Below, in pieces: positions 4,728 through 62,265 of a stretch of DNA of 64,000 bases. The position numbers were made by a program, and so were the translations under genes. The stretch is from Carallia brachiata (taxonomy: Eukaryota; Streptophyta; Magnoliopsida; Malpighiales; Rhizophoraceae), in the NCBI GenBank assembly GCA_021464245.1, contig JADCRB010000037.1, forward strand, positions 7,296,861-7,360,860, given 5' to 3'. The notes beneath the pieces are model-generated. The model was not told the DNA's origin. It searched no databases and saw only the letters and a program-made list of their open reading frames with translations. Numbering within the stretch: position 1 is the stretch's first letter; each line of letters begins with the position of its first letter.

Positions 4728-4780
4728 AATCTACACCTTGACTTGAATTAGGACAAGGTCATCATAATTCCCTAATCGTC

Positions 4781-9368: not shown

Positions 9369-9396
9369 CTTGAAATACCTGCAACCAATCAGTTGG

Positions 9397-9408
9397 GCTC
9401 TGATACCA
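9397..9408 (-). other. copia primer-binding site (tRNA-iMet)
   Basis: On the minus strand the sequence is TGGTATCAGAGC, the standard 12-base match to the 3' end of plant initiator tRNA-Met, three bases downstream of the 5' LTR end. Confidence 0.92.
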
Positions 9409-9411
9409 GTT

Positions 9412-34245: not shown

Positions 34246-34249
34246 CTCG

Positions 34250-34764
34250 TGTGGCTGTAGGCTAGCCATTGCCGATCTTTAGAGAGATCAGTTGCATTCT
34301 TTGGTTGGTCCAAGAAATTATGTTGCTCGACTTCCATATCACAAGCATCTGTAGCAGCAGAAGGAGAAAACACAGGGGGGAAGGAAAGGGTAGAATTACG
34401 GCCAAGGGTCTTCACACGTGCACCCTTCTTTCTGAAATGGGTCTTTTTTTTTTTAACAAGTAAGCTAGTGGGGTTGGATTGGTTTTGAGAGTCGTCTATG
34501 GGTTTGAGTAGAGATTCGGAGTTCATTTGGGCATATATGGCGGTGGGTGGGGGGAAAAATGTGTCTACCATTGGGGGTGTATTGTCTGGTGTAACATTTA
34601 GGAAACTTGGGCCTCATGCTTTTTCACTTGGGTTAGGCTCAACGGGCACATAAGGAGGTCCCTTTTCCTACTTGAAGTATACTCCATTCTTCGATTACAT
34701 TGGGTCACAAAAGAGTCCACACTTAGTGAGACCAACGATAGATTTGTAGCATTAAAAATTTGAT
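34250..34764 (-). pseudogene. LINE-B ORF1, C-terminal part
   Basis: Continuation of ORF1 beyond LINE-C. It reads LSLVSLSVDSFVTQCNRRM, later TPDNTPPMVDTFFPPP and a basic tail (KKKKTHFRKKGARVK), to LDLELSRV and a stop at about 34206. The end overlaps the start of ORF2, where a Trp of the SWNC motif is a TAG. No domain other than the low-complexity tail. Confidence 0.65.
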
Positions 34765-34814
34765 TCATATATGATCAAAAAAAAAAAAAAAATTGATTCA
34801 TAAACAAATTAGGG

Positions 34815-36310
34815 ATGGAAGACTCCAGAAGAACAATGAAGCCGAGTGGTGCCCCTGTGATGCTTGACGAGTTGGATCAACTGGCGCAGAGCACAAAGAA
34901 GGTAAAGCGGACTTTTGTTGGTCTTGTGGTGGAGCAATTGCAGCTAGGTACATTTGTGGCTATGCTGTATGGTGGAGTCATTGGAATGGGGAGGCCGCAC
35001 CCAACCTATTGCGATGTTTTTTTGGCAACAACTCAAGTTACCTCATGGAAGTCGGTATCGAATGATTGTCTGATGGCCGGTGAAGAGGAGCTTAGGTATC
35101 CGGATGATGAGGGAAATGAAGGTCCATGTGATTGCCCGAATTTCCCACTTTGTATTGAGGAGAAGGCGGAACTGAGAAATCTGTGGAAACGTACGTACAT
35201 TGTGAAGATACTGGGCAAGACGGTTGGGTATAGCTTTTTGTACCATCGCCTTGAGCAAATTTGGAGTCTCACTGGTAAAATGATGCTCATTGACTTAGGT
35301 AATGACTTTTCCTGGTCAAGCTCGAGGTTGTGGCTGATTATGAGTTGGTCATGACTAGAGGCCCATGGATCGTTGTGGATCATTATCTCACCTTGAGGCA
35401 TTGGCAACCGGATTTTGACCTTAATGTTACTGGTATTGATAGGGTCGCGGTTTGGATCTGCCTACCGTAATTGCCTATAGAATACTATAATCCAAAGTTT
35501 TTGTGGAGAGTAGGGAACTGGGTGGGTCGTACGGTGAAAATTGATCGTACTACAGCCGAAGTTTCATGGGGTAATTACACCAGACTCTGTGTTGAGATTG
35601 ATCTTGCCCAACCACTAGTGACACGATATTAGGTTGGGGGTAGAGTCAGGAGGATTGAATATGAGGGCCTTAATTTGGTGTGCTTCCAGTGTGGTATATA
35701 TGGTCATCAAACTGGTGCGTGCAAGACAGATGGTTTTGAAGTAGAGGCCACGAAGGCTAAGAGTGGCAGAGAAACAGGCCAAAAACCAGAGGAACAAAGT
35801 GCTTATGGGCCTTGGATGTTAGTGAAACGGACGGGGCGCAGGGGTAATGGTGGGAAGGAAGTGTTAGCCCCAAGTGTCTCCGGTGGAGGTGTTGATGGTG
35901 GTAAGGGTTCTCGTTTCATCGCTCTGGAACTTGATGTTAAAGAGGCCCGTGGTGTGCAGAAGTGATTTTGACTGCTGATGCAAGCTTTCCCCAAGAGGTT
36001 GGAGAGAAGGAGAAACGAATTGCTCGTGGGCATGGGGCTAAGGCTGGCCAAGGGCCACGTAGAAGTTGTGGAAGAGCTTCTGAGTTACAAACTAAGGGTT
36101 CTGTTCACAATGACCAACCAGGTGCTACCAAAGACAACGCAATGTTGGAGTCAGATGTTGTTTTTGTCGTTGGAGGCAATAGGGTGCAGTCCCCTGCAAG
36201 GGAGGGACTTATGACCAAGAACAGTTCTCCAAAGTTAGCCACTGATGGCCATGCTTGTAGCAATAAAGGGGCTTTGGCCATGGACTGTGGTGTCCCTGGC
36301 CACTGATGGC
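34815..36310 (+). pseudogene. LINE-C ORF1 (DUF4283 and zinc knuckle)
   Basis: The N-terminal half (ATG 34815; CNFPLCIEEKAELRNLWKRT-like region) is the leader and DUF4283 start. DUF4283 proper continues near 35210-35460 in another frame (LGKTVGYSFLYHRL, MTRGPWIVVDHYL). Next come VGNWVGRTVKID, the knuckle CFQCGIYGHQTGAC near 35683, the motif YGPWMLVKRTGR near 35806, and a Gly/Lys-rich tail. At least one frameshift after 35300 and further stops (for example 35470 and 35631) break it. RNA-binding role inferred from the family. Confidence 0.8.
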
Positions 36311-36610
36311 CATGTTTATCAGGTATGGAGGTCGATAATTCTAGGCCTTCTGCATCCGGTCTCTCTCCATGTGCTAATGCTCTTCAGTTTGGAAATTAAT
36401 CCGGGCCCCGGGACTAGGGTAGCTGCTGCCATGTTGGGCGCCTCACCTACCATACAACTCGAAGCTAGGTTGAGTTTGGAGCTAGGTTTGGTGTCACAAG
36501 TGGAGGATACTCCCATGCATCTAGACCCAGTACACGGGCTGGTGGATAAGCCGGCAAGTGGACCTGCTGCTTGAACAGGTATTGTTTTCTTACCCCCTCC
36601 CTTTTTTGTT

Positions 36611-39600
36611 ATGGATTGCCTTATTTGGAATTGCTATGGTGTGGCTAGCACCAATTTCTTATGCACGATTAAGTTGTTGGTTAAGGTGCATAGGCCTCGC
36701 ATTGTGGGTATTTTGGAACCCAGAATTAGTGGGCTTCAAGCTGAAAAGGTTTGCAAAGCCATAGGTTTTTCAGAAGTCCTCTGAGAAGAGGCTTGTGGTT
36801 TTGGTGGGGGTGTGTGGATATTATGGAACAGAGCCAACATGCAGTTGACTTTGGTTGAGCGCGACGAACAATTCCTTCATGTTTTAGTACAAGAGTCAAA
36901 CAGTGCTCCTTGGCTCTTGACTGTTGGCTATGTGAATACCTATGATGACCGTCGGCATATGCTTTAGGAAAGGTTAAGGGATTTGAAAGTTCGTGTTGCT
37001 CTCCCCTGGTTAGTGGTCAGGAGATTTAATGATATCAAATCTCCTGAGGAAAAGCGGGGTGGCAGAGCAGCTCAGCGGTATTGTTGGGAAATGTTTTCCA
37101 AATGGATCGATGACATGGATTTTGTGGATTTAGGCTTTTTGGGTTACCATTCACTTGGGTGCGAGTATCGATGCCCAAAACTCGCATCTACTACTATCTT
37201 GATCGTGCTCTCTATAAACATTGATTGGAGACTTCAATGGCCTAAGGCAGTGGTTAGGCATCTCCCTCATGTTGGGTCAGATCATTGTCCTTTGTTAATG
37301 AAGCTTGTAGGGATCCCTCTTCAACCCTCCTCGGTCAAATCCTTTTGAATTCAAGCCGCATGGATGCTTCATGGGGAGTTTCAGAATTTTATTCAAGAGA
37401 AGTGGGAGCCTGAGGCGGCATTACCAAATGCCCTTCGGTCTTTGTCAGTTGAGCTTTCTACTTGGAACCGTCAGGTTTTCGGTAACATCTTCTATAGGAA
37501 AAAAAAGGCTCTTGAATTGGATCTAGGGGTGCCAACTCGCGCTAGCTCGTTGTTTTAATTATGGCTTGCTTGAGTTGGAATGGAAACTATAGTGTGAACT
37601 CTAAGATTTGCTAAAATAAGAGGAAGGTTTTTGGTTTCAAAAGTCAAGGCACTAGTGGATTCATGACGGTGATTGTAACACACGTTTTTTTCATGCTACT
37701 ACTACGGTTAGACGTCGACACAACAAATTGAAGCGGTCAAGGATGAGACGAATAGATGGGTTTGGGAGAGTCAACAATTGTAGGATTTTGCTTGTGACTA
37801 TTTTTCGACTCTGTATACCGAGGACACCCCGGGAGCTGATAAGGGCTTTGGTTTTCTAACTAGTTGTTTTTCTTCTTTATCACTGGTGAATGTGCGCAGC
37901 CTCTCTTTGCCTTTTAGGGCAAATAAAGCTAAGAAAGCTGTGTTCAGTATGAATCTATTTAAAGCGCCTAGCATCAATGGATTTCAAGTCGTCTTCTTCC
38001 AAAGGCTGTGGAATATAGTTGGTGGGTCCATGTCTTCCCTTTTACTCCATATCCTAAATGGTGGTACAGTTCCCGCTGATCTCTGTGAAACACTTTTGGT
38101 CCTCACTCCAAAGTGTGAGAGGCCTCAACGAATTAGTGAGTTTCGGCCCATTAGTCTCTGTGATGTAACTTACAAAACACTCACTAAGGTTCTGGTTAAT
38201 CGTTTGAAGCCCTTGCTACCGAAATGGGTCACTCCAAACCAAACGAGCGTTGTACCGGGACGTCAAATCACTTATAATATTGTTATCTTACAGGAAGTGT
38301 TGCACACTTTGAGGGGATTGCGAGGCAGGAAAGGCTTTATGGTCTTTAAACTTGATTTAGGGAAAGCCTATGATAGGCTTAGGTGGGCATTCATTCATAG
38401 CACAATAGAGGAGTTGGGATTGCCTTTAAATTGGATACGGTTGATTATGGAGTGTGTGTCGTCTACAAGGATGAGTTTTTGTGGAACGGTGCCCTAACAA
38501 AACCTTTTTCACCAACTGAGGGACTTAGGTAAGGGTTCCCCTTGTCCCCATATTTATTTGTCCTCTGTATGGAACATTTGGGGCATTTTATAGACGGGAC
38601 AGTGGCCGCAGGTATTTGGAAGCCTTTGTTCAAATCCAAGAAGGGGCTGGGTTATCCCATTTGTTGTTTGCCAATGATGTGGTTTTATTTGTTGAAGCTT
38701 TAGTCTCACAAGTATTGATTGTCAAAAAGTGCCTGGATGCCTTTTGTGAGGTTTCAAGGTAGAAGTTCAGTCTAGCAAAGTCTAGGATTCTTGTATCTCA
38801 AAATGTGGAAAAGCACATTGCCAGATCTTTGAGTGTGGCTTGTGGATTTAAGTTGACTGAGGACCTTGGTAAATATTTGGGGATGCCCACTTTTAATGGA
38901 AGGCTCACGTTCTCTGCTTATAAAGGCATCATTGAGAAGGTTCAGAATAGTTTGGTAGGGTGGAAGGCCCAACAACTCTCTTTTGCGGGTTGTTTGATTT
39001 TGATTAAGTCGGTAACTTCCTCTATTCCGGCCTTTGCTACGCAAACAGTTCCCTTGCCTACGACAGTGATTGAAAGATTGGATAGGTTGAATAGAAGTTT
39101 TTTTATGGGGGGAATACAAATCAGTGCAGAAGGGTTCATCTTGTCAATTGGCATGAAGTGTGCAAACCGAAACATAAAGGGGGATTGGGCATTAGAATGG
39201 CCAAAAATGCTAATCTTGCATTTCTTGCAAAATTGGGGTAGAGGTTCATCATTGAACCTGGTAGCCCTTGGGTGCAATTGTTGAAAGGTAAGTATTGCAG
39301 AACGGAGGAGAGCTCCATTCATTTTTAAAAAGTAGCATTAGCTACCTAGAGGGGGATGGTTCGGGGTAAGGGCTTGTTGGAAGAAAATTGTAAGTGACGT
39401 TTAAGGAATGGGCCCACCATTAGATTCTGGACTGATTTGTGGCTACTAGATGTGCCTTTGCAGTCCCTTGCACTACGGCCTCTTAGTTAGTAGGAGCTGT
39501 TTTACCCAGTAGCGTATTATTGGAAGCACGACATTGGTTGGAATTGGATTGACTTGGAAAACTTGTTGCCCTCGACTGTCTGCCGTTCTTTGGCAACTTA

Positions 39601-40630
39601 TTTGGTATCTAATAATCGTCACAATAGGGATAGGTTATGTTGGGGCCGGTCCTCTGATGGCCACTTTTAAGTGAAAGAGGCTTACATGGCCTCAAATAGG
39701 CAGGATGCACTCCCACGTTGGAATCCACATCTGAACATGATTTGGAAACTAAAGGAGGCTGAAAGGGTACGGTGCTTTATGTGGTGAGTTGCTAGAGGAC
39801 GTATCTTATTGAACCAAGAGCGATGGTGTAGAGGTATCTCTAATTCACCCACTTGTTATTTATGTGGTTTATATGATGAATCTATTATACATTTGCTGAG
39901 GGATTGCCATTTGGCTGCGCGTTTATGGGGTTCCTTAGTGCCTTCGGCAAAGAAAGCACAATTCTTTCATGATCCTCCCGACATTTGGCTCTTGACCAAC
40001 CTTACTCCTACGCGCTTGAATGCTTGACCGAGGGATGAATGGCCAATGATCTTTGTAGTAGCATGTTGGTACCTGTGGAAGTGGAGAAATGAATTTTACT
40101 TTGGGGGAGTTCGATACCTCAATTATGCCAAGGAGCCCATTCTTGATATGGTCAACACTAGCCTCGATGACAAGCTAAATGTACTAGTCGTGGGAAGGGA
40201 CCAACCTGTTTCAAGGCCCTTAATTGGATGGGAACCACCAAGCGAGGCATGGACTAAAGCCAATACTGACGGCGCTTGGAAGCATGGATATGCGTGCGCC
40301 GAGGGAGTCTTCCAAGACTCTCGGGGTTGCTGGGTTGGGGGCTTTGTACATAATGTTGGATCTTGTTCAATTGTTGTAGCAGAAATTTGGGGTATCTACC
40401 ATGGGCTAGACTTGGCGTGGCAATGGGGCATTCAAAAGCTTTGGCTTGAATCTAACTCATTAGTGGTTGTAGCCAGTTTGACTAAAGATGTTCCTTCTAC
40501 CCATTCGGGGGCCAATTTTATTCTTGCTTGCCATAATATGTTGAAGAGGGACTGGCATGTTCACATTACTCATGTGCTAAGAGAAGGGAATTAAGCAGTC
40601 GATTGGATGGCAAATTTTGTTGGCACTTTA
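36611..40630 (+). pseudogene. LINE-C ORF2 (endonuclease, RT, zf-RVT, RNase H)
   Basis: ATG 36611 starts MDCLIWNCYGVAS, the endonuclease N-terminus; it continues with GILEPRISG, VVRRFNDIKSPEEKRGG and VGSDHCPLLM (about 37290). RT: LVLTPKCERPQRISEFRPIS, VPGRQITYNI, LDLGKAYDRLRW (37886-38497), then FPLSPYLF, LLFANDVVLF (Asp to Asn in FADD) and KYLGMPTFNG (38805-39284). zf-RVT: CYLCGLYDESIIHLLRDC (about 39860). RNase H: ANTDGAWKHGYA, AEIWGIYHGLDLA, HITHVLREGN (40046-40594). Several in-frame stops and shifts inactivate it. Confidence 0.88.
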
Positions 40631-43535: not shown

Positions 43536-43915
43536 TGATGCAATTGCTGATAAGGATTTCTTTTTCCAAAAGAAATTTCGAAAGTTTTGGCCCTCTTAGG
43601 AGTTATTATTCAATTAATAAATTTTTATCTTAATTAGGACGTGTTTATTTATGTGTTTTTCATTTAGTTATTTTAGTATTTATCTTTCACAGTTATCCTG
43701 TCTTTATTGGGATTTATTCTTATCATTATCTATTAGTTTACTCTATAAATAAAACTTTAGACTCTCATTGTTAGGCGGACTTGTTATGATATTGAATATT
43801 AAATTCAAAGTATTTTTCAAGTGAATTCTCATTTTTTTATGTGGATTTTCGAGTGTTTTTAGTTGTCAGGTGGATTCTTCACTTAGAATTTTTTTTCGTT
43901 ATTTGTCCAACATCA
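43536..43915 (+). repeat. Chromovirus 5' LTR
   Basis: 380 bp, TGATG to CATCA. Contains TATAAAT at 43744-43750. By eye clearly related to, but well diverged from, the 3' LTR. Confidence 0.85.
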
Positions 43916-43917
43916 AT

Positions 43918-43929
43918 TTGGTATCAAAT
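43918..43929 (+). other. Chromovirus primer-binding site
   Basis: TGGTATCAAATC, two mismatches from the tRNA-iMet complement TGGTATCAGAGC, two bases after the LTR. The leader that follows (43930-45060) is unusually C-rich near 44040-44540 and ends in A-rich tracts. Confidence 0.75.
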
Positions 43930-45062
43930 CAAACCTACAATCCAAACCCCTTTGTCGATCCTAAACTACACAAAACAAGCCTTCCAAATCTGTTCCTAAA
44001 CTTGTTTTTCCCCAAAAGCACTCAAAACACCTCGAAAATCAAAAACACATTTTAAAACGATTTGTTTGTCCGCTGTTACTCCTGCTCGCTAGAGAACCAG
44101 CTCCACCGCTACGAGCTATTGCCTCCTATCACTAGCGACACCTAAAGACCCCTTCACTAGAATTGTGGAGCACTGATACACACATCCTCTGTATTCACGC
44201 CCCGAAAATCGGCCAGTAATTGTCCAAACGACTGCTCAACTCTTGTTGTCGTCTCTTGCTCGGGTACCTTTCTGTCGCCTATCCTGTACATCGTTGAAGC
44301 TCCAAATTAGTCTATAACAAATTACATACATTCGATCGACCCTTCCCCGCCACCAGCGACCCCAGATAGGGCCTACACGATGCCGTCCAAGAGCTTCTCC
44401 TCTGCGTACCGCCGCTTGCCCTCGAGTTCCTTCGTGGCACACTACCAGACGTGCGATGCCAGTACCCTTAACCTAAAAACGGCCTCCACTTGGGTCCTCT
44501 ACCCTCGTTGGAGCCTGAGTTTCATCGCTGGAGAACTTCCATTACAGCAAGCAAAAGGTATACTGTCGTGTGAGGTATATTCCTTCTTTTGAGAATTTGA
44601 TTAATATTGCTGAGTTTGTTATTTTAAGTAAATTTGTATTTGGTTTTAAAAAAAAAAAAAAAAAAAACCACCCATTGTTACCTACACTATATCAAACAAA
44701 TTACAGCCTCCATATTTCCTTTTTCTTTTTGTTCACATCCACTTCCATATCTTACTGTCCATTTATTTACCAGCCTTTTATTTTACCATAGTCTATTTTT
44801 GTTTTACTTGCACCTTTTATTTTTTGTCCATAGCACTATCATTCACATTTTAATTTACTTATGGTTTTGTTCATCATAGTATTTTATAATTTTTATTACT
44901 TTTTGTGATTAGTGTTTATCTCAGCATAAAATTCTTTGTTCACAAAAAAAAAAAAAAAGGTTAACAACAAAAAAAACCACCAAATTTTCCAATAAACCCT
45001 CCTCTGAAATAGATGACCTCTGTGAAGAAATTTTAGCCACACAACTAGCCCATCATTCCAAC

Positions 45063-46215
45063 ATGAACAGTCTTAAAAATAATTTTGCAAATTTGTCCAC
45101 CCAGCTAAATGCTATTTTAAAACATTTGGACAAACAACTAGTGGTTATGTTTGTTGGACAACCAACTGAGGCAACCCATGCTGAGAGTTCTGTCAATGCC
45201 AAATTTCCTGCGCTTTACCCTCGAGACCCTAAGAATTTATTCATCCCAAGTCCAACTGTTAGGTTTTCTCCTGATGGAAACCTACACGATCAAATTGATG
45301 ATGGTGATTTTTATTGTGATGCTAGAGTTGTACGTAAGCATCCTATTCATGATTTATGTGATGATATGCATAATCAAGTTTATGATAGGCATCATAGGCC
45401 ACAACACATGCATGCACGTTTAGATCATAATGACAACACCAGAAAGATTAAGTTAAATGCTTTTGAGTATAATAGTGAATTAAATGCTGAAATGTTTATG
45501 GATTGACTTGATAGTTTAGAGAATTATTTTGATTGGTATGGAGTAAGTGATCTTGAGCATGTCCAATTTACAAAAATGAAATTGGTTAGGCTTGTTAAGA
45601 AATTTTGGCAAAATGAGTTTCGTAAATTTACACGTTTAGGTGAGCTTCCCATTATTCTATGGGATGTCATGAAAATGAAGCTGAAAGCAAAATAAAATCC
45701 CACCTTTCATGGGAATGAGCGTTATACTCAACTCCTAACTCTTAGGCAATCAACTTCTACTGTCATTGCCTACATGTCTAAATTCAAAGAGTTTCTTCTT
45801 AGATGTGAGTTATATAAAGACCCTCTCCTTACTATTAACCATTTTGCTAATGGCCTCAAAACCGAGATCCCAAAAAAGGTTGTTTTGTTAGGTCCTAATT
45901 CTTTGGAAGAGGTCTATCATAAGGCCTTAGAGGTCAAAAAGTACGCTAAGACCTTTTCCTTCTCGTGCTCGTCCCTCTTTGTTGGAGCGCGTGCAACCAA
46001 AACCTTCTTTTCTTATGGTCCAACTGTTTAGTCTAAACCCGTCAATCTATCCACCCTGTTTCATTCCACTCCTGCCGCTTCTCGTCTGGTAGGATCTTTT
46101 TTTTAATCTCATGTTAGTAACTCTCCCATTAAGTGTTACCATTGCTATAAAAAGGATCACATTGCCTCTCATTCTCCTAATTGTACTCTCGTTATGGAAA
46201 AAAAAGTGTGATGAT
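45063..46215 (+). pseudogene. Chromovirus gag relic
   Basis: Starts MNSLKNNFANLSTQLN; capsid-like region LDSLENYFDWYGVSDLEHV, VIAYMSKFKEFLLRCELY, INHFANGLKTEI, EVYHKALEVKKYA; then the zinc knuckle CYHCYKKDHIASHSPNC near 46140. Stops after FMD (45504) and KLKAK (about 45692) break the frame. Confidence 0.8.
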
Positions 46216-46366
46216 CTCTTAGAGAGTGAAAATTAAGTTGTTGATTCATTAGAGTACTCTAGTAAAGACGATGAATTCATAGAGGATTTCAAGGAAGATG
46301 ACAAGCACTGTGTTGTTTTTAGGTGTTTTTTTCTCTACTATTGTGGACAATAACATGTGAAAACAT

Positions 46367-47610
46367 ATGAGTATATTGCACAGCTACATTAGATCTGAAG
46401 ATCGTAGTTATAAGCTGGTTATTAATGGAGAGAGTATTATGAATGTTGTTGTGAAGTCTGCCCTTTTGAGATTGAATCTTAAGGTAGAACCCCACCCGCA
46501 ACCATTTCGAGTAGCTTGGGTGAATAAAAACACTTTACCAGTTACCAGTGGCAGATTCAGAAAAAAATTTTAGGAGAGGCAAACCTTATATGTAAAGAAT
46601 GCCAAAACAAAAACTAATTATATATATATATAAATATTAATGAAAACAAAAATTCTATTAATTATTTTGAATAATAAACATTAGAATTATATTATGTTAA
46701 AATAAAATATTTTTAATTTTTTTTGTTTTTTAGACAATCAAATACAGTTTTTTAATAACGTAATCATTTAATTGTTTAATAATTTATCTTTCGTGTGATT
46801 GTATAATAGATTCTAATAATTTGTTTCTAATAATGTTTTTTTATTTAATATTTTTTTAATAAATAAGATGTTTTTGAAAAAGAGTGGTAATATGAATATA
46901 AGCAAAAATTATTAAAAAAAAAACGTTAAAAGTAAATAAAAATAATTTTAGTATATTCATCGCAAATGGTTACCAAGAAAATTTTAAAAAAAAATAAAAG
47001 AAAAGAAAAGAAAAGAAAAAAAATGTAAATTAAAAAAAAATCGATTTTTAGTGGGAAAAAAACACAGAACGTGAATGGAATAGAAAAAAAAAAAACAAAA
47101 CACCGAAAATGGGTAAAGAAGCCTCGAACTTTGGACTAGAGGGTGGGCAAGGTACACATTTAGAGGGGGCAAAGCAGGCTTTCCACAAGGCTAATCTTCT
47201 GTGCCCTGCAATGCTTCCCCTCAAATGATATATAACATAAAAGTTGAGGGTGCGCAATTGCCCACCCTCATTTACAGGTGGATTCGCCAATGCTAGTTAC
47301 TGAGCGATACTTAGTTCCCATTCAACTAGGTGACTATAAGGATAAGATTTACTGTAATGTTTTGCTTATGAATGTAGGTCATATTCTTTTGGGTTGCCTT
47401 TAGCTCTACAACCTTCATGTGATCAATTATGGTCGGGAGAATACCTATGTCTTTAAGCATGAAGGCAAGAACACCATTTTGAACCCAACTAAGCCCTCTG
47501 TTAAGGAAGTAAAGCCGAAATCCAAATCTCTTCCCCCTTGTTTTACCAAAAAAGGCCTTCACATTCTGGACCACAAGGCCTTTGAAAAGAAGTTAGGAGA
47601 TAATGACTAA
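46367..47610 (+). pseudogene. Chromovirus protease region, split by a hAT element
   Basis: The left half reads SILHSYIRSEDRSYKLVING and LRLNLKVEPHPQPFRVAWV (the family's HPxPYxVxW motif). After the insertion (46546-47292) it resumes RYLVPIQLGDYKDKIYCNVL, then HILLGCL and VINYGRENTYVFKHEGK, matching HLLLGRPW and GRxNTYxF. The catalytic Asp-Ser-Gly is not recognisable (NGES in its place). Confidence 0.75.
46546..47292. mobile_element. hAT-like non-autonomous element
   Basis: Ends CAGTGGCAGATTCAG and inverse CATTGGCGAATCCAC, with 8-bp flanks CCAGTTAC (46538-46545) and CTAGTTAC (47293-47300), one mismatch. A/T-rich centre and a GC-richer right third. No transposase. Confidence 0.8.
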
Positions 47611-47823
47611 TTGGTAGTTGTTTCCAAAGAGGTCAGTCCACAGTCGAGCACACTTCGAGTTAACCTTCCTCATGCTTTTGGTACTTGCTTTTGGTAAATT
47701 GCTAGAGGAATTTGTGGATATTATGCCTGATGACCTTCCAGTAAGCTCCCACCCACGTGGAACATACAACATGTCGTTAACTTAGTTTTTGGTTCACAGT
47801 TACATAATCTTTCACACTATAGG

Positions 47824-50312
47824 ATGAACCCTAAAGAATGTGAAGAATTAAATAGGCAAGTGAAAGCACTATTATCTAATGGCTTTGTACGATATAGCCT
47901 AAGCCCTTGTATTATCCTTGCTTTCTTGACCCCTAAGAAAGATGGGTCATGGAGGATGTGTATTGATATTCGTGCTATCAACATGATCACTGTCAAGTAC
48001 CGATTTCTCATTCCTAAATTAGAGGACATGTTGGATATGTTAGCAGGTTATAGTTGGTATTCTAAGATAGACTTCGTAATGGGTATCATCAGATACGCAT
48101 TTGACCTGGAGATGAATGGAAGACTACGTTTAAAAACGTAAGATGGGTTGTATGAGTGGCTAGTCATGCCCTTTGAGTTGTCAAATGCTCCTAGTACATT
48201 TATGAGGGTTATGACTCATGTTTTGAAGGCATTTATAAACGGTTTCTAGTGGTCTACTTTGATGACAGCTTGATCTAGAGTAACTAAGAAAAAGAACATT
48301 TGGCACACTTGTGGTTAGTTTTCCTTATTCTTAGGGAAGCAAAATTGTATGTTAATCTTAAAAAATGTACATTTCTATAGCTTGAAGTATTGTTCTTATG
48401 ATTTATTGTTTCTTCCCATGACATAGCTGCAAATCCTAAAAATGTTGGGGCTATTCGAGAGTGGCCTGAGCTCAAGACTCTTACCAAACCCCATTGCTTT
48501 TATGGTTTAGCCTCCTTCTATTGGAGGTTTATTAGGGGGATTCAGTACCATTATAGCCCCTATCATTGATTGCTTGAAAAAAGGAAATTTACAGTGGTCT
48601 AGTAAAGCTTTCACAACGTTTACTGAAATCAAGAAGCAAATCAGTGAAGCTCCTGTTATGAGCTATCCCGACTTCAACAAGGTGTTTGAAGTTGCTTGTG
48701 ATGCATTGGAGTTAGCATTGAAAGAGTCCTAAGTCAGCTAGGACACCCCATTGCCTTTTTCAGCAAAAAACTCAATGAAGCAAGGTAGAAGTATTCTATT
48801 TATGATGAGGAGTTTCATGTTGTTGTTCAGTCTCTTCATCATTAAAGGTACTATCTGTTGGCCAAAGAATGTGTTTTGTTTTCTAATCATTAGCATTATG
48901 TTATTTGAATTCTCAGAAGAAATTGAATGCTAAGTATGCTAAATGGGTTGATTTTCTTAATGAGTATTCTTTTGCACTTGAACATCATAGTAGGAGTCAA
49001 GTTACTAATACTCGGAGTCAAGTTGTGTGTGTCCTTCAAGAGCTACATGCTTATGTTATTGGTTTTGATAGATTTCATGATGAGTATCTTGCTTGTCCTG
49101 ATTTTGATCTTATATCTCAGTCTATTGATAATGGACATCATAGGGACTTTGTTGATTTTGTTGTGCATAATGGGCATTTGTTTAGAGACAACAAGTTGTG
49201 CATTCCACGTAATTTACTTCATGACTTTTTGGTTTGGAAGATGTATGCTGGTAGGTCAGTTGGTTACTTAGGAAGGGATAAGACAATTACACTTGTGGAT
49301 GATAGGTTCTACTGGCCTTCCTTGAAGAAATATGTCTCTAGGATTATTTCACAGTGTCACACTTGTTAAGTTGCCAAAGTAAAAAAGCATAACACTGGTT
49401 TGTAAACTCCACTTCTTGTTCCATATGCATCTTGGCGTGATGTTAGCATCGATTTTGTGCTTACTTTGCTCAGGACAGCTTGTGGTAATGATTGCATTTT
49501 TCTTGTTGCGGATAGATTTTTTAAAATGGCTTATTTTATTCTATGTAATTAGTCTATTGATGCATCTCACATTGCAAAGCTATTTTTCAAGGAAGTGATT
49601 AGATTGCATGATTTGCTTACTTTTATTGTGTCTGATAGAGATGTTAAGTTTGTGAGTTACTTTTGGAAGAAACTTTGGAAATTGTTTGGGACTTACTTGA
49701 AATTTTCATCTACATTTCATCCTCAAACAAATGGTCAAACTAAGGTAGTTAACCAAAGTTTAGGAGATTTACTTAAATGTCTGGTGGGTAAAAAACAAGG
49801 AAAATGGAACTTGATTTTACCAACAGTTGAATTTACTTACAATAATTCTATTAATCGGTTCACCGGTAAAAGTCCTTTTGAGATTGTTCATGGTTATATC
49901 ATTCGCACACTTGTTGACCTTGTTCCCTTTTTCCCTGGTCTTCAGTTTTCTAAGCCTGTTGAAAACTTTGCTGTACACATTCATAATCTGCATGCTGAGA
50001 TTAGGCGCAAGATTGCTCTAAGTAATACTGATTATAAGCTTGCTGCTAATGTGCATTGTTGAGATAGACATTTTAATGTGGGTGATTTTGTCATAGTCTG
50101 CATTTGACTTGAGTGTTTCCCTAAAAACAAGCCCAATAAATTACAAGCCCAAGTCATTGGCCCATACTTCATTATTGAAAAAAATTGGACCTAATGTATA
50201 TTTACTTGATTTACCAGAAAACTTGAATATTAGTACTATTTTCAATGTCAAGGATTTGTCACCTCATCAGGGCACTTTCGAGCCTCCTTCTTTGTCGTAT
50301 AGTCTCTTGTAG
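47824..50312 (+). pseudogene. Chromovirus pol: RT, RNase H and integrase
   Basis: RT: MNPKECEELNRQVKALL, CIDIRAINMITVKYRF, YSWYSKIDFVMG, then [20 protein letters not shown] and VYFDDSLI (catalytic YFDD kept). RNase H: VFEVACDALELAL, KYSIYDEEFHVVVQSL. Integrase: H2C2 zinc part (HNGHLFRDNKLCIP, FYWPSLKKYV, CHTC, 48905-49369), core (SIDFVLTL, VSDRDVKF, HPQTNGQTKVVNQSLGD; the Glu position reads V-V rather than E-V-V-N), and C-terminal IGPNVYLLDLPENLNIST ending near 50312. Many stops and shifts. Confidence 0.85.
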
Positions 50313-50559
50313 GTACTACTGTGCCTAAGGCGCCCTCTTTTGCTCCACGTGCTGAGGATGTTGAGGCTATCCTAGATGATGAATATGTTGCTTCTTCTTA
50401 TGGAGGATTTTGACGTTTCCTTTTTTAGTGAAAAGGTCGTCTTGGTTCTAATGCTACTTCGATTACTGAGGATGATCTTCATTTGATAGATCTTGTTTGT
50501 TTTGATGCTTATTTGGCAGTATCCTGGATAGAGTTGAGTTCGTTTCAATTGGAGGAGAA

Positions 50560-50903
50560 TGATGCAATTACTAATAAGGATTTCTTCTTTTGGAAGAAAT
50601 TCCAGAAGTTTCGGTCCACTTAGGAGTTGTTGTTATTAGATTTTTATCTTAATTAGGACATGTTTACACGTGTTTATCTTTTAGTTATTTTAGTATTTAT
50701 CTTTTACGGTTATCCCGTCTTTATTAAGATTTGTTCTATCATGATCTATTAGTTTACTCTATAAATAGAGCTTCAGACTCTCATCGTTAGGCAGACTTGT
50801 GCTGACATTGAATATTGAATTCCAAGTATTTTTTGAGTAGATTTTCGTATTTTTCGGGTGGATTGCTGACTTAAGGTTTTCTTTTGTCGTTCGTCCTACA
50901 TTA
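50560..50903 (+). repeat. Chromovirus 3' LTR
   Basis: 344 bp, TGATGCAATTAC to CATTA. TATAAATA at 50760-50767. Preceded by the purine tract AATTGGAGGAGAA. Confidence 0.85.
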
Positions 50904-54444: not shown

Positions 54445-55092
54445 AATCTTTATAATGTAAGGTCTTTAGCATTTTGAAGCAGCAGTCTTGGTAAGGAACT
54501 AACATTTAGTGAAGAAAAAACAAACAAATGGGAAACAAAAAAAATTTAATTATGCTTATCCTCCCATACACTCGATCCTAATTAGTGTAAGTAGGATCAA
54601 AATTAATGATTGTTTTCCTTTAAACGTGGGTAATAATGGCTTTTCATTAGAGAATTTGGCTCCGATGAAAAATCATTTAGAGATCCCAATAAATGATTCT
54701 TTCAACATTCCAGTCCATAACTTTGTCTTCCCCATGTGTATTAATCAACCAATATAGACATATATTTCCTACTTTTATTTGCTAGAAGTTTTCACAATTT
54801 TACAATTTGTTTTGTTCTTCTTTTTTGATTAGCTTATTAATTGGTATCAGGTTGGACGCAACCTATGTCGAACTCACTAACAAAGGGAGAGTAAGAGTTT
54901 CGGGACGCATCAAGTGCGTAACTGGCGAAAGCTACTATGGATTTCAGTGACTCTCTGCATCTTGTATATTTGTTGTCTTGTTATCTTAAGATTGCCTCAA
55001 CTGCAAAATCAAGTATGAGAATTATAACTTTCTGCCACCGTAATTTGTCGGAGTATCTCTTTCAAGTTGTGGCGATGGTACAACAATGCGAC
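54445..55092. other. Intergenic DNA left of the Tat-type element
   Basis: A reading frame at 54509-54757 has no recognisable domain. No gene assigned. Confidence 0.35.
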
Positions 55093-55876
55093 TGTAAATG
55101 TAAAAAAAAAAAAAAAAAATTGGTCAGCAATTGCCGACCTAACTAAGGTTAGTAATTGTTGACCGCAATCAGCGGGCCACCAACCCAAAGGGTTGGTGGC
55201 ACAGTCCTCCCTGAAGGGCCTATAAATAGGTCATCCCCCCCCCCCCCAGTTCAATCGATCATTTTAGAAAATTTATAAATAGAAAAATAGAGAAAACTTG
55301 AGAGAAAAAGAAAATTTTGAAAATCTTTCAAGAAAATTTCTCCTTTTTTTACGTGTTTTTACTTTACGGTATACTCTCCTAACTCCTTTTTGAGAGATAT
55401 CTCAGGTGTAAGCCCAAAAAAAAATTTTCTGTATCCATTTTCAAGTGTATTTTGGGTTTATACTCTCCGATCGTACCAAATATGGATCTGTGAAAGTATA
55501 GATCTAAAATATCAAAATATTACAAATCCGGCTGAGATCAAGCCTTATACGGCCCTCAACAAAGTTCAGGCAGCCCATCTGAGAACAAGTCCCTTCAACC
55601 CTTGGTGAAATCAAACCAGATCGAGTCATATTAGATCTCTGCGGCTCTTAAATGTAGTCTAAACGTCTACATCAGATCTAATTTCAGTACTACATATAGT
55701 TCAAGATAATGCTGTGGAATTTGTTTCCGTCAAAATCAAGCTCGTGCAGCCCTTGACAGAGTCACGCAGGAACATTAATCAGAGGATCCATGAAGATTGA
55801 CCCTACGTAAATTTTCTTTTATTTTAAAATTTTTATTTGCAATTTGTAATTTGTATTTTCGAATCTAACTGTTACA
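55093..55876 (+). repeat. Tat element 5' LTR
   Basis: 784 bp. It opens with poly-A, has a TATA box (TATAAATA, 55221-55228) and a C14 tract about ten bases after it. It ends CTGTTACA, where TACAAG is shared with the RT codons Tyr-Lys at the deletion junction. Confidence 0.88.
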
Positions 55877-58800
55877 AGGACGTGTGCGCATTGAATTACA
55901 AAGAGATGCCCAGACTTGATCCAAAGACCACGGTGCACCGCCTAACAGTGAAGAAAGGTGTTTGTCCTGTCAAGCAACCACAACGACGGTTCCCCCCGGA
56001 ACTCATTCCACAAATCGAGGAGGAGGTCAACAAGCTGATCAATGCTGGCTTCATCCGAGAGGTCACTTACCCAATGTGGATTGCCAACATAGTCCAGTAA
56101 GAAAAAAGAATGGACAGCTAAGGGTATGTGTTGACTTTCGAGATCTTAATAAGGTCTGTCTGAAAGATGACTTTCCATTGCCCATAACAGAGATCACGGT
56201 TGATGCAACAACGGGCCACAAAGCATTGTCCTTCATGGATGGTTCTTCAGGATATAACCAGATCAGAATGGCACCAGAGGATGAGGAGTTGACAGCATTC
56301 TGCACCCCAAAAGGTATATACTGTTACAAAGTTATGCCGTTTGGATTAAAAAATGCTAGCGCCACTTATCAGCGTGTCATGCCAAAAAATTTTGATGACA
56401 TGCTGCATAAGATTGTAGAATGCTATATCGATAACTTAGTGGTAAAGACTAAGGAGCACAAAGACCACCTCGAGGATCTCAAGACAGCGTTTAAAAGACT
56501 TCACAGGCATTAGCTCAAAATGAACACCTTCTCAAGTGTGCATTCGGTGTCACATCATGAAAGTTTCTTGGGTTTGTGGTGCACCATCGTGGAATCAAAA
56601 TTCATCAATCAAAGGTTGAGGCAATTCAAAAGATGCCTGAACCTAAAAACCAGTACAGCTGCGAAGTTTATAAGGAAAGCTGGCTTACATTCGCCGTTTT
56701 ATCTCCAACTTAGTTAGGAAATATCAACCTTTCCATCAGTTGATGAAGAAGGATGTTGACTTCGAGTAGGACGAAACTTGCAGCAAAGCTTTCAAGAGCA
56801 TAAAGAAGTACATTTCCAATCCACCAGTCCTAAGTGCTCCAATTTAAGGAAAATCGTTGATTCTCTATATTGCAGCGCAGAAAAGGTCTTTAGGAACCCT
56901 GCTTACGCAGGAAAATTGAGCAGGGAAAGGAAGTTGCTCTATATTATTTGAGCAGAACACTAAACGGTTCAGAGCTGAACTACTCGCCTATCGAGAAGAC
57001 ATGTCTAGCACTATTCTTTACTATTGATAAGCTAAAGTACTACATGCAGGCTCACACGGTACGTCTCATTGCTAGAGCTGATCCTATCAAATATATCTTA
57101 TCTAAACCAGTCTTGTCAGGACAACTTGCCAAGTAGGCAGTAATTCTACAGAGCTACGACATTGTCTGCGTGCCCCAGAAAGCAGTCAAAGGACAAACTC
57201 TAGTGGACTTCCTTGCAGATCACCCTGTCCCATCCGATTGGAAATTCACAGATGATATTCCGGATGAAGAGGTCTTTTACACCGAGACACTGCCACTATG
57301 GACCATGTTCTTTGATGGTGCAGCAAGGCGTGATGGTGCTGGTACCGGCATAGTGTTTGTCCTTCATCAATGACAAAACACTACCATATGTTATCATTCT
57401 CGGTGAGTTATGTTCAACTAATGTTGATAAATACCATGTTTTAATCATTGGTCTTCAAATGACTGTCAATATGAAAATTCCAACTATAAAAGCCCATGAA
57501 GATTCACAGCTCGTTATCAACCAACTTACAGGGTTGTATGATGTGAAGAAAGAAAACCTTGCGCCTTACTATCAGCGTGCTCGACAGCTAATGGATGAAT
57601 TTGAAAGCATCACCTTGGAGCATGTGCCTCGACGAGAAAACACTCAAGCAGACGCGTTAGCTAACATGGCCACTTCTCTTGCAATGTCAGAAATCCAGTC
57701 TACAGTTGTTGTCGTACGCCAGAAGTGGATCATGCTGCAGACGGATGATGAAGAAACTACAACAGATAACACTGTATCTGTACATCTCGCGTAGGGTGAG
57801 GATTGGCGCCAACCAATCATTGACTACCCACAACACGGGAAACTACGCGAAAATCGCCGTCATAAGATAGAAATTCAACGACAAACTCCGCGCTTCATAT
57901 ATCTCAAAAATGCTCTATATCGAAGGTCTTTTGATGCAGTTTTATTTCGTTGCCTTGGCAATGAAGAGGCAAAACAAGCTCTTACTGAAGAACATTTCGA
58001 CGTTTGTGGTGGACATCAATTAAGGCCGAAATTGCACTTTCAGCTCAGAAGAATGGGATACTACTGGCCAACAATGGTACATGATTCCATTGAGTTTGCT
58101 AAAACCTGTCAAGCTTGTCAATTTCATGCCAATTACATACATCAACCACCGGAGCCACTGCATCCAACTGTCTCGCCCTGACCCTTTGAAGTTTAGGATC
58201 TCGACTTAGTGGGGCCCTTGCCAAAGTCGTTCATAGGCCACCTGTACATCCTCACAACAACAGATTATTTTTCAAAAAGAGCTAAAGCTATTCTACTTAG
58301 AGAGGTAAAGAAGGAACATGTTATCAACTTCATCCGGACTCATATACATAGATGAGATTTTCACCTCATACGGCTCCTCGTTCAATTCTTTCAAAGTCAT
58401 TGGATCCTTTTCCTCGTTCGAGAAGCTCCTCCCTTCCTCCACTCCGTCCCGAAGAGTAACTAGGACAAATTCAGTCACGTTTTCATGTTCCAATTGAACA
58501 CTTTGGAATTCCTCGGTTCATCATCACTAATAACGGCAAGCAGTTCTACAACAACTTGATGGACAAGCTCTACGAGAAGTTCAAATTCAAACAGTACAAA
58601 TCATCCATATACAATGCCCAGGCTAACGGTTTGGCTAAAGCATTCAACAAGATCCTGTGCAACCTATTGCGAAAGGTAGTCTCTAAATCCAAAAGAGATT
58701 TGCATGATAGAATTATGGAGGCATTATGGGCATATCGCACAACTTACTGGATCCCAACACAAGCGATGTCGTACTCACTTGTCTACGGTGTCGAAGCAAT

Positions 58801-59193
58801 ATTGCCGTTGAAAACACAAATTTCATCTCTGCATATGGCTGTTCTAGAAGGACTCACACAGGAAGAGAATGCTCGCCTACGTCTAGATGAATTAGAAGCC
58901 CTCGATGAAAGGAGACTCAAAACACAACAGCAACTCGAGTGCTACCAAACCTGGCTCACTAATACATTCAACCGCAGAGTTCGCCCTTGATCATTTCAAG
59001 TTGGAGAACTTGTTCTAGCAGTACAACAACCCATCAACCTGAAGCAGCGACATGGGGACAAACTTACTTCTAAATGGGACGGGTCATACCTAGTGTATAA
59101 GGCCTACACCCACAACGCTTACATGTTGTTAGATCAAGAAGGCGTCTGGATTAACCCGATCAATGGAGAATTTTTGAAGCATTATTATGTATA
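55876..59193 (+). pseudogene. Tat element pol (RT, RNase H, aRNase H, integrase)
   Basis: RT begins at the LTR edge: YKDVCALNYKEMP, PQIEEEVNKLINAGFIREV, NGQLRVCVDFRDLNKVC, SFMDGSSGYNQIRMAPEDEE, YIDNLVV (catalytic YVDD has become YIDN). A decayed RNase H lies at 56700-57130. A second one follows: LWTMFFDGAARRDGAGTGI, HEDSQLVINQLTG, HVPRRENTQADALANMA (57170-57794). Integrase: CGGHQLRPK..CQACQFHAN, DLVGPLPKSFIGHLY, IITNNGKQF (Asp to Asn), ANGLAKAFNKIL (catalytic Glu to Lys), and a C-terminal part ending GEFLKHYYV. Stops, shifts and one antisense insertion break it. Confidence 0.88.
58346..58497 (-). other. Foreign antisense segment inside integrase
   Basis: Integrase reads INFIRTHI, then about 150 bp that do not fit, then FGIPRFIITNNG. 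The extra piece carries an open minus-strand frame (part of 58293-58493): MEHENVTEFVLVTLRDGV, SFSNEEKDPMTLKELNEE. Acidic, no family recognised. It may be an inverted piece of another or the same retroelement. Confidence 0.6.
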
Positions 59194-59299
59194 AATATAT
59201 GTGTTCCTGAAAAAAAATCAAAAAAAAATGAAAATGAATCAAAAAAGAGAAAAGAAAAAAAAATCAAAAAAATCAAAAAATCAAAAAAAAGTAAAAAAA

Positions 59300-59692
59300 A
59301 AAAGTTTGGAAGTCCCAATCTGAAAGTCCAAACCTGAAAGTCCAAACCCGAAAGTCCAAGCCCAAACACTTGAGCCCAAATCAGAAAACTCAAGCCCGAC
59401 TCCAAAGCCTAAAAACCAAGTTCAGATCCAAAACTCAAACACTTGACCTCAAATCCAAAAGCCCAAGTCCAAAAACCCAAACACTCGAACCCAAATCCAA
59501 AAGCCCAAAGCCTAAAAATCAAGTACAGAAAACCAAAGACTCGAGCCCAAAACCAAAAAACCAAGTCCAATCCAGAACCCAAACACTCGAGTCGAAATCC
59601 AGAAGTTCAAGCACAAATCCAAAGCCTAAAAGCTTAAATCCAAATCCAAAATCCAAACACTTAACATCCAGTCCAACTCTTGGCTCACATGA
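59300..59692 (+). repeat. Decayed minisatellite in the pol-3' LTR spacer
   Basis: Variants of AATCCAAAAGCCCAAGTCC and CCCAAACACTCGAG(C/T)C recur about every 20-45 bp. The frame at 59370-59705 reads as a Lys/Pro/Ser/Gln low-complexity chain (PKTQTLEPKSKSPKPKNQ). Such 3' tandem repeats are known in Tat/Ogre-type elements. Confidence 0.75.
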
Positions 59693-59717
59693 GTATAAAC
59701 TATGAACGGCCCAACAA

Positions 59718-59725
59718 TATAAAAG
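59718..59725 (+). promoter_or_regulatory. TATA-like box before the WUS-like cargo gene
   Basis: TATAAAAG, 88 bp before the ATG at 59813, followed by a pyrimidine-rich leader. It suggests the cargo had its own core promoter, not only the LTR. Confidence 0.5.
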
Positions 59726-59812
59726 CAATCGTGAGTTTGAGTCTGAGTCTCTGCTTCAGTCTCGCTTCAGTCTTCCCTGTATATCAAACCTTTGCTCCTC
59801 TGCAGCAAAAAA

Positions 59813-60438
59813 ATGGAACCATCTACAGAACAAGAAGTTAAGGAAGAAGAAAGGTCACCCAAAAAAAGATGACACCCAACTATGGCGCAACTGCAAATTT
59901 TAGAGGAGTTCTTCTATAACAATGGAGGTATTGTCCCTAACTCATCACAGATTCTCCAACTTGTCTCACGACTGCGCCCGCTAGGGGTAGTCGAAGGAAA
60001 AAATGTAAATTTTTGGTTCCAGAATCGGAGAAATAGGAGAGAGCGGTGCTGAGAGATGTTATTTTTAAAGCACAGTCTGTCGTTCCTATAGTATATCTCA
60101 CTGGTACAGCTTCACCCTCAAATGAAGTAGGCCTGAGTTCTACCACTGCAATAGTCTCTCCATGGTATGTTGATCAGAGCCATAACCTATAGGAGTATAC
60201 GTACTGGTCCTGGTGGTCTTACGGAGTCAACCAAGGGTTTATCCCTCCCAAGTACTTAAGTTCAGGAGGAACTTTTCTAGCAAAAAGAAGACATTCTAGC
60301 AAAACTTTGCCTCTCTTTCCAAAATATTCTGACAGCATCAACCAGCCAGAAGGCTCCAGCGATATCAACATCATCGGCCCACCGGACGATGCCAGACTTA
60401 ATTTGGAGCTACGCCTCAGGCCCTGCCAGGACGGTTAG
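59813..60438 (+). pseudogene. WUSCHEL-like (WOX, WUS clade) homeobox gene carried by the retrotransposon
   Basis: WUS-clade WOX proteins are nuclear transcription factors keeping stem-cell niches. The frame opens MEPSTEQEVKEEERSPKKR, then a TGA (59870-59872) where WOX homeodomains have the Trp of RWxPT. It continues HPTMAQLQILEEFFYNNGG, IVPNSSQILQLVSRLRPLG, VVEGKNVNFWFQNRRNRRER: all three helices and the WOX signature EGKNV-WFQN. One frameshift near 60040-60050 leads to the tail, with a TAG at 60190-60192. The tail holds SKTLPLFP (the WUS-box TLxLFP, 60304-60321) and ARLNLELRL (EAR-like LxLxL repression motif, 60397-60417), ending QDG-stop. About 208 codons, close to WOX5-size proteins. No intron is evident, favouring capture of a spliced transcript. 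Same strand as the element, between pol and 3' LTR. Confidence 0.87.
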
Positions 60439-60698
60439 CAAGATAAGGTGCAACGACTTTAGCATTACATGGTAACGACTTCTATAGTAAACGGTAACAA
60501 CTTTCGTGACGTGAGTCAGTCGTATCCTCTTTTGTCTCTTATGCGGGAAAGGGACGTGGAGGACCCTATTAGATTTTGCGTACCTTCTTTTGACTTTTTT
60601 TTTTTTTTAAAAAAAAACTCTTTGGTGTATGTATATATATCCTGCATGCCTGAGTCATAACACTCACCCCCTCAGCTACTCTTTTTCTTAGAAAGAAA

Positions 60699-61001
60699 AT
60701 GGCTAGTCTCTACACTTGTCGTAGAAAGTTCTTTGATTAAGAAGTTGGAGGCGTACGAACTAAGAAGAGAAAGAGTAGTCCTCCTCGAGAGATCCCTAAA
60801 AACCCTTGAGACTCAGTCTCCAATGTCATCGGTGTAATGGAGTTTCAACCATTCTCCTTAGTTCACATCTATCGCAGCGAGCTAAGAAGTTGTGATCGTC
60901 CTCTTGGATTTACAGATGTAACGACGGATGGGGAAGTTCCAACTACTCTACTTACGTCAAAACAGACTCGAAAATTATCACTACAGTCTGTCTCTCTGTG
61001 A
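60699..61001 (+). pseudogene. Second accessory reading frame of the Tat element, unknown function
   Basis: From ATG 60699 a 100-codon frame runs to TGA 60999-61001 with only two internal stops (60738-60740, 60807-60809). It begins MASLYTCRRKFFD and has a nuclear-localisation-like cluster (RTKKRKSSPPR), then VIGVMEFQPFSLVHIYRSEL and TSKQTRKLSLQ. No family recognised. It lies 260 bp after the WUS-like gene in the same orientation, so may be a second cargo or its continuation. Another short frame at 61057-61239 is less convincing. Confidence 0.4.
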
Positions 61002-61361
61002 GTTTGCCTTGAAGTTCCGTAGTCATAGGCCTTCCTCATGAGAAGGTTCAAGTTCTTTGTCTACCAGATCATCCTCACCAGAGCTGTGGAACTTTAAGAC
61101 ACATAAAATAACCTTTGCAAGTTATGGAAGCTCCATATCAGCTGGAGCCAAAGCTTCAATTTCTATATTGGCTGGACTGCTGACTTCCTCAAAGTCGTAT
61201 CGGTTTCCTATTACGGACCAACAACAGTTGGCTAGCTAGAGATAGAAGACTTCAAGGTTCAACATTCATCAAGACGTCTAAAGCTTCAAACTAGACTTCA
61301 AGACTCAGTTCGGATCACGTCCGCAAAGTTCTTTTTTACCGACCCTTAAAGTGGGAGCATT

Positions 61362-62231
61362 TGCAAATGTAAAAAAAAAAATAAATAAATAAGTCTAAGT
61401 TTCTAAAAAAAAAAAACAGAGATTGGTCAGCAATTGTCGACCTAATCAAGGTCAGCAATTGCTAACCGCAATCAGCGGCCACTAACCCTTTGGGTTGGTG
61501 GTACAGTCCTCCCTAGAGGGTCTATTTATAGGCCTTCTCCCCCCCCCCCCGGCTCTCCCCAGTTAAATCGATTATTTTAGAAAATTTATAAATAGAAAAA
61601 TAAAGAGAACTTGAGAGAAAAAGAAAATTTTGAAAATTTCTGAAGAAAATTTTGAAAATTTCTAAAGAAAAATTTGAAAATGTCTGAAAAAAATTTCTTC
61701 TTTTCTTACGTACTTTTACTTTGCGGTATACTCTCCTAATTCCTTTTTTAGGGATATCTCAGGTGTAAGCCCAAAAAAAATCTTATGTATCCATTTTCAA
61801 GTGTATTTTGGGTTTATACTCTCTGATCGTACGAGATCTAGATCTGTGAGAGTATAGATCTAAAATATCAAAATATTACAAATTCGGCTGAGATCAAGTC
61901 TCATACGGTCCTCAGCAAAATTCAGGCAACTCATCTGAGAACAAGTCCCTTCAACCCTCGGTGAAATCAAACCAGATCGAGTCAAATCAGATCTCTACAA
62001 TTTTTAACCGTTGTTCAAACGTCTACATTAGATCCAGTTTCAATACTACCAGTTCAAGATAAAGCTGTAGAATTTATTTCCGTCAAAATCAAGCTCGTGC
62101 AACCCTTAACAGAGTTATACAGGAGAACACTAATTGGAAGATGCACAAAGATTGACCCCACGTAAATTTCCTTTTATTTTAAAATTTTTATTTGCAATTT
62201 GTAATTTGTATTTTCGAGTTTAACTGTTACA
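61362..62231 (+). repeat. Tat element 3' LTR
   Basis: 870 bp, TGCAAATG to TGTTACA. By eye similar to the 5' LTR through most of its length, with an extra A-rich block after the start and an extra TGAAAATTTCT-type repeat near 61630-61690. TATA equivalent is mutated to TCTATTTATAGG; the C-tract (61540) is kept. Confidence 0.88.
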
Positions 62232-62265
62232 AGTTCGAGATTTTCATCGCTTAAAGTGACGTTTT

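Follow-up and report, generated by a model that had tools for sequence, protein, structure and literature searches.

A WUSCHEL-like homeobox gene as a regular part of a Tat-type Ty3/gypsy retrotransposon family in Carallia brachiata

We analysed a window of 64,000 nucleotides, that is, the whole stretch of Carallia brachiata contig JADCRB010000037.1 presented above. The element at 55093-62255 is, as judged from its sequence, an old, gag-deleted Tat-type Ty3/gypsy LTR retrotransposon, and its LTRs and internal parts all lie on the plus strand. It is flanked by a probable target-site duplication, with GCGAC on the 5' side (55088..55092) and its decayed partner GTGAC on the 3' side (62256..62260), four of the five bases being equal. 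The 5' LTR (55093..55878) has lost its final ~20 bases by deletion; this end was judged by comparison with a young copy of the family, to whose LTR the window 5' LTR corresponds at 81% over 659 columns. It abuts directly on a decayed reverse transcriptase and RNase H (55879..57353; Pfam RVT_1, E = 2.3e-23), with the PBS, gag and protease missing, whereas in most siblings the gap between the 5' LTR and the reverse transcriptase is about 2.4-3.6 kb. In a young copy, a stretch of 61 aa resembles gag by eye but gave no Pfam match.

The order RT-RH-aRNH-INT is a feature of the Tat lineage. In the window the second, archaeal-type RNase H (aRNH) lies at 57354..57794 (RVT_3/PF13456, E = 1e-16) and is followed by a decayed integrase region (57795..59195), which matches siblings in two pieces by blastn and contains about 150 bases that the siblings lack. 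The Pfam scan of the window integrase ORF gave no integrase match, and a sibling integrase ORF matched H2C2 and rve slightly below the Pfam cut-offs. This gypsy order, with aRNH between RNase H and integrase, was confirmed in the siblings by blastn.

Downstream of the integrase there is a spacer with degenerate tandem repeats (59196..59812), which includes TATAAAAG at 59718 and the acceptor-like CTCCTCTGCAG at 59795-59805. Between this spacer and the 3' LTR lie a decayed, intronless homeobox gene (59813..60439) and a further 0.9 kb, in which we found a decayed second accessory ORF (60699..61000) and, by eye, a polypurine-tract-like stretch (61348..61361). The 3' LTR occupies 61362..62255, its ends being placed by eye. 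Over 773 sites the two window LTRs show 88.2% identity, with 73 transitions and 18 transversions (K2P 0.131). No match to TRP28, the domain of the Retand antisense ORF, was obtained with Pfam in the pieces scanned, which were all from the sense strand, and Rfam and tRNA scans of the window gave no matches.

The homeodomain frame starts with an ATG at 59813 (frame 1) and meets an in-frame TGA at 59870. The frame changes near 60048-60052 (about 60050), and the second frame contains a TAG at 60190 and the terminal TAG at 60437-60439; the W of the RW motif is a stop in the window homeodomain. Helix 3 is marked by WFQN (60014..60025), followed by the WUS-box TLPLFP (60304..60321) and the EAR-like LNLELRL (60397..60417). 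The last two motifs were recognised by eye, and Pfam gave no match on the portion beyond the homeodomain. The homeodomain piece itself matched Pfam Homeodomain (E = 1.2e-8), and its top match among sequences of solved structures was Protein WUSCHEL (E = 8.6e-14), one TGA having been translated as Cys in the query. The AlphaFold2 model of the 59-residue piece had a mean pLDDT of 91.8, and its top Foldseek match was WUS-HD (TM 0.93). In a first protein search, six relatives were found among 98 candidates, all of them WOX-like.

The same parts were found in other copies. The WOX-type homeodomain signature (RW.PT, NVxxWFQN) occurs in the retro-WOX copies, as we call them here, and open copies also show, by eye, the TLPLFP WUS-box and then the C-terminal EAR-like motif, in this order. 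Two young copies passed Pfam Homeodomain clearly (E = 2.3e-12 and 1.1e-9). One of the old copies, although its frame is open throughout, scored under the cut-off (E = 0.0028), and the EAR-like motif reached only E = 0.7 against Pfam EAR. The first-pass annotation had described a decayed gene with a WOX homeodomain, a WUS-box and an EAR-like motif in order, and the Pfam, WUSCHEL and fold matches agree with this description. The gene is almost certainly a WUS gene captured by a Tat-type gypsy element.

We compared the retro-WOX homeodomain with those of other WOX proteins. Our alignments showed that it is one residue longer than in WOX1-5 and that the extra residue is common to WUS. In a tree of 27 rows, the retro copies, WUS, P0001 and P0122 were placed on one side and the other WOX proteins on the other (support 85/76; long branches). 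Capture from WUS rather than from WOX1-5 is moderately supported by these sequence comparisons; homeodomain length and tree both speak, with moderate support only, against WOX1, WOX2, WOX3, WOX4 and WOX5 as the source. The same tree, together with the WUS-box and EAR-like tail, is in line with the earlier assignment of the part outside the homeodomain to the WUS clade. P0001 (lgn) and P0122 are short WUS-like proteins on small contigs. P0122 (ENA, a contig of 1094 bases) is 33-37% identical along the whole retro-WOX, has a WUS-box and DLELRLG and sits on a long branch; by its sequence it may represent the element gene elsewhere or a relative of it, or else be a WUS that has diverged.

Among the 133 scored matches listed for a Cucurbita WUS protein query, 124 were of the retro type and 9 were exons of host WOX genes. 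The host exons are two WUS-like, two WOX1-like, one WOX2-like, one WOX3-like, two WOX4-like and one WOX5-like, names given by resemblance. There are two host WUS genes (L063, L064), and among the proteins compared the nearest to host WUS was that of Erythroxylum. The frame of L064 is broken after the homeodomain exon and resumes further on (by eye, in a stretch without the WUS-box exon), whereas retro-WOX, of about 207 aa, is one continuous frame; this difference fits the loss of introns proposed at first. The retro genes share the longer homeodomain with host WUS, but the end of helix 3 is altered: in open copies WFQN mostly precedes RR, and position 54, an A in WUS, is then S, N or H. Thus, the DNA preference of the protein may have changed. 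Q50 and N51 are kept in young copies. The long branch of the retro genes points to an old capture or to fast change, and not to a recent copy of a present-day host WUS.

A captured gene in one copy could also be explained by a single chance insertion of a WOX retrocopy, or by an element landing beside a host gene. Nothing beyond the decay of the window copy favours this. We therefore consider here the siblings of the element, which stand against it, in the 337.5 Mb of the genome (164 contigs). The window gene gave 1156 first-look candidates; the best 40 of these were scored and yielded 42 match rows, nearly all spanning the gene and, besides the window copy, 84-88% identical to it. Twenty stretches of 9.9 kb each (L021-L040) were taken around homeobox matches, and the presence of the gene in 20/20 is therefore by construction. 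The integrase of the same element lay upstream in the same sense in 19 of them, and a homologous 3' LTR lay inside 18, being absent from L030 and L033; in L030 what is present is limited to the homeobox, the post region and a portion of the spacer.

The search was also made from the integrase. Of 150 integrase matches listed, 145 were without a stop. A listed homeobox was located 0.7-0.95 kb downstream of 33 of these 150, and a listed integrase upstream of 31 of the 124 listed homeobox matches, both lists being confined to the best-scored matches. For 117 integrase matches no homeobox was listed; 8 were picked randomly among the first 40 of these, and all 8 turned out to have the homeobox. A helix-3 pattern of 22 specified bases, with at most two mismatches, had 895 matches in the genome and none for the reversed control; these were counted as sequence matches rather than as elements checked one by one for context.

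The homeobox gene is thus confirmed by sequence as a regular part of the element family, and sibling elements carrying it across the genome have already refuted the single-insertion reading, whose probability is now close to nil. The lone chance insertion of a WOX retrocopy is ruled out by these siblings. The first-pass annotation had placed the gene in sense between pol and the 3' LTR and had favoured transduction over insertion into a host gene. Both points hold: the gene sits between the integrase and the 3' LTR, with the integrase upstream in 19/20 sibling stretches and the homeobox in 8/8 copies picked by integrase.

Some integrases of similar score are accompanied by different homeobox subtypes (L065, L066, L068 and L071 versus L059; helix-3 ends RRSRKK and RRHRET). 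This suggests that the homeobox module may change faster than the rest, or be exchanged between elements. Two further places, G000 C111:273622-294095 and C17:78812-91499, show serial LTR and homeobox matches, by appearance tandem elements with a common LTR.

We next consider age. The siblings are old: the LTR pairs of 13 of the 20 gave K2P distances of 0.107-0.190 (146-533 sites); the remaining seven had no LTR pair within the stretch. A tree of 39 old homeobox copies, a set from which the C141 copy was excluded since it was split in the list, is star-like, with a median end branch of 0.064. Other copies form a young subfamily. Among the 124 best-scoring retro matches 121 had no stop in the matched stretch, a ranking that favours intact copies. 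An open frame of 229 codons was found in at least 30 match rows, and an identical 207-aa protein is encoded by two copies on different contigs. With an LTR query, the best 40 of 2043 candidates were all 99-100% identical, and a homeobox lay 1-2.5 kb upstream of 26 of these 40 places, as judged against 28 hand-picked homeobox positions. Nine same-strand LTR pairs were spaced 8.8-10.2 kb apart, seven of them enclosing a listed homeobox. The LTRs of young copy C88 differ by K2P 0.022 (509 and 187 sites); no target duplication was recognised by eye at this copy. Taken by their sequences, the elements belong to a family that has moved recently.

Has the gene been kept because it is of use? We calculated pN/pS for open copies of four subfamilies, Y1, Y2 and Y3 (young) and L057 (older). 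In frame, the values were 0.33-0.53 in 10/10 pairs (Fisher p 0.0003-0.018), these being 10 chosen pairs of the 28 possible among 8 sequences, which share branches and are not independent. In both other frames the same pairs gave 0.69-1.72, with no p < 0.05. In a separate run, dN/dS was 0.31-0.44 for young-young pairs that differ, 0.42-0.66 for young-old pairs and 0.49-1.19 for old-old open copies. Within the 39 old copies, however, no codon-position bias was found, neither in private nor in shared variants; in the non-redundant counts, 5 near-identical copies were left out. The selection test suggested at first therefore came out positive between subfamilies and negative within the old burst. 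The lack of a third-position excess in the old burst is expected if most changes came after insertion; that set neither supports nor excludes selection.

At codon 68 (homeodomain Trp48) the 39 copies have W in 19, L in 14, a stop in 5 and S in 1. W and L are scattered over the tree, with 11 changes, equal to shuffles, and are not clustered. Judging from the sequences, this scatter possibly reflects recurrent change, recombination between elements or a relaxed need for DNA binding. Either a broken homeodomain did not visibly halt the old copies, or the break followed insertion.

The captured gene could instead be useless to the element and have spread as a passenger inside a successful master element, the young copies being open through youth alone. 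The absence of codon-position bias in the old burst and the frequent loss of Trp48 there are what such a passenger would show. However, the gene is found in every subfamily sampled, and replacement changes between the open copies of the four subfamilies are held down in the coding frame only, so we regard a mere passenger as unlikely. Some function of the homeobox gene for the element is quite probable.

A second ORF follows in sense about 260 bases after the homeobox gene; in a young copy (L082:242-541) it is open for about 100 aa and has a basic AKKRR stretch. Open pieces of at least 55 aa were found in 15 of 18 other copies examined, that of the window among them. Pfam gave nothing significant on this ORF. 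Its pN/pS ranged from 0.45 to 0.98, and 1 of 15 comparisons had p < 0.05, uncorrected; any constraint would thus be weak. A TATA-like stretch is present upstream of it. Neither this ORF nor the direct junction of the 5' LTR with the reverse transcriptase figured in the first-pass annotation.

We aligned the region before the homeobox gene in 18 of the 20 siblings and the window copy. A TATA box lies 95 bp before the homeobox ATG, and TATAAAA is kept in 18/19 copies, a conservation that among star-like copies may be mere descent. Immediately before the ATG there is a pyrimidine-rich CTGCAG, whose AG is kept in 16/19 copies and lost in 3/19. From its sequence, either the TATA box or the acceptor-like site could serve the expression of the homeobox gene.

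WUS recruits TOPLESS-type co-repressors through its WUS-box and EAR-like motif. We propose that a Tat-type Ty3/gypsy family captured a WUS gene. The introns and a large part of the linker would then have been lost, and the gene would have stayed between pol and the 3' LTR in an accessory role, both through the old burst, to which the window copy belongs, and through the recent amplification. Its expression would depend either on the TATA box of its own or on a subgenomic RNA produced by splicing. Its product would bind DNA via the WUS-type homeodomain, and the WUS-box and EAR-like motif would recruit TOPLESS-type co-repressors. As a regulatory accessory protein of the retroviral type, it may alter transcription in dividing cells, probably meristem or germ-line-forming ones, and new element copies would thereby be made where they are inherited. 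To this whole explanation, a captured WUS gene retained as an accessory gene and expressed as a regulator acting in dividing cells, we assign a probability of about 0.6. Plants set aside no germ line early; hence, new insertions of a mobile element are inherited only if transposition takes place in meristem lineages. That the WUS-derived protein targets the element to the meristem or germ line is conceivable at somewhat less than even odds.

The targets of the protein may be host genes or the element itself. WUS-type sites were counted in three LTRs, a spacer and a post region, with 300 shuffles of each stretch for comparison, and showed no excess in these five stretches. Retroviral accessory proteins often regulate the promoter of their own element. 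The homeobox protein could do likewise at the LTR or an internal promoter, for which the retention of Q50 and N51 in young copies would be suitable; for plant elements, the main text of PMC7264820 argues that antisense extra ORFs have a comparable role. The missing site excess stands against such self-regulation, although residue 54 differs and the protein's own sites may differ with it; we consider this role quite improbable. Alternatively, the protein might dampen host silencing or defence, or displace host WUS, rather than steer cell fate. The repression motifs (EAR-like and WUS-box) in open copies and the diverged residue 54 would fit this, but no result of our analysis points to a silencing target, and we think it improbable. 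Because of the absent site excess in the LTRs, spacer and post region and the changed position 54, an accessory transcriptional regulator acting on host genes appears the most likely from sequence, with benefit in the meristem or germ line as the leading idea.

A v-onc is a host-derived gene transduced by a retrovirus. Like retroviral transduced genes and accessory regulators (HTLV HBZ is treated in the main text of PMC11963269), the present gene is a host-derived or nuclear regulator in a reverse-transcribing element; unlike them, it belongs to a plant LTR retrotransposon and is a regular part of a family. Viral contigs scanned with the homeodomain gave 22 pattern stretches, none of them confirmed.

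Extra ORFs between pol and the 3' LTR are described for Tat/Ogre/Retand Ty3/gypsy elements in the main texts of PMC11963269 and PMC7264820. Our family resembles these elements in its long region between pol and the 3' LTR, with tandem repeats and extra ORFs. However, their extra ORFs are, according to these texts, antisense (TRP28, Smc and others) or sense and env-like, and the words "homeobox", "homeodomain" and "WOX" have no occurrence in the two main texts. The main text of PMC9289625 reports Phalaenopsis gypsy elements with an AlkB-type 2-ODD ORF, and a screen of 121 angiosperm genomes with 15 filtered non-canonical domains in gypsy consensuses, including YgdH/LOG, B3 and AlkB-type. The Phalaenopsis elements are similar in that a captured host regulatory gene is present in many copies and was kept over several rounds (PMC9289625), but it encodes an RNA demethylase and not a transcription factor; "homeobox" and "homeodomain" do not occur in that main text.

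Searches of open PubMed Central papers turned up no LTR retrotransposon described as containing a WUS/WOX or homeobox gene. That plant gypsy elements can capture host genes is already known, and a WUS-derived gene regular in a large, recently active family appears to be new. Developmental regulators may have been captured repeatedly by gypsy elements, with LOG-like and B3 genes elsewhere and WUS here. A bolder and rather doubtful extension is that the element brings along a stem-cell regulator of its own, much as some viruses carry an oncogene: the WUS-derived protein would alter the state of meristem cells, and cells in which the element transposes would thereby stay in, or enter, the gamete-forming lineage. 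The second basic ORF, with LOG-like and B3 elsewhere, would then be a further case of a broader tendency of plant retrotransposons to take up developmental regulators.

Because this amplifying family has retained a WUS-derived gene in both its old and its recent wave, and shows signs of selection on it, one can now test whether stem-cell state is steered or read by plant retrotransposons. In addition, the WUS-like open frames that belong to mobile elements in this genome number well above one hundred, which affects WOX gene counts based on annotation.

Other elements were also observed in the window. A younger copia-like element lies on the minus strand at 4145-9867, with LTR pieces 93-96% alike and three 290-base tandem copies near one end. 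At 43536-50854 there is a decayed gypsy-like element with repeats 80-88% alike and reverse transcriptase and integrase-like ORFs at 47734-50062. On both strands at 155-2782 and 29595-40594 we recognised, by eye, frames of LINE type for an endonuclease, a reverse transcriptase and an RNase H.
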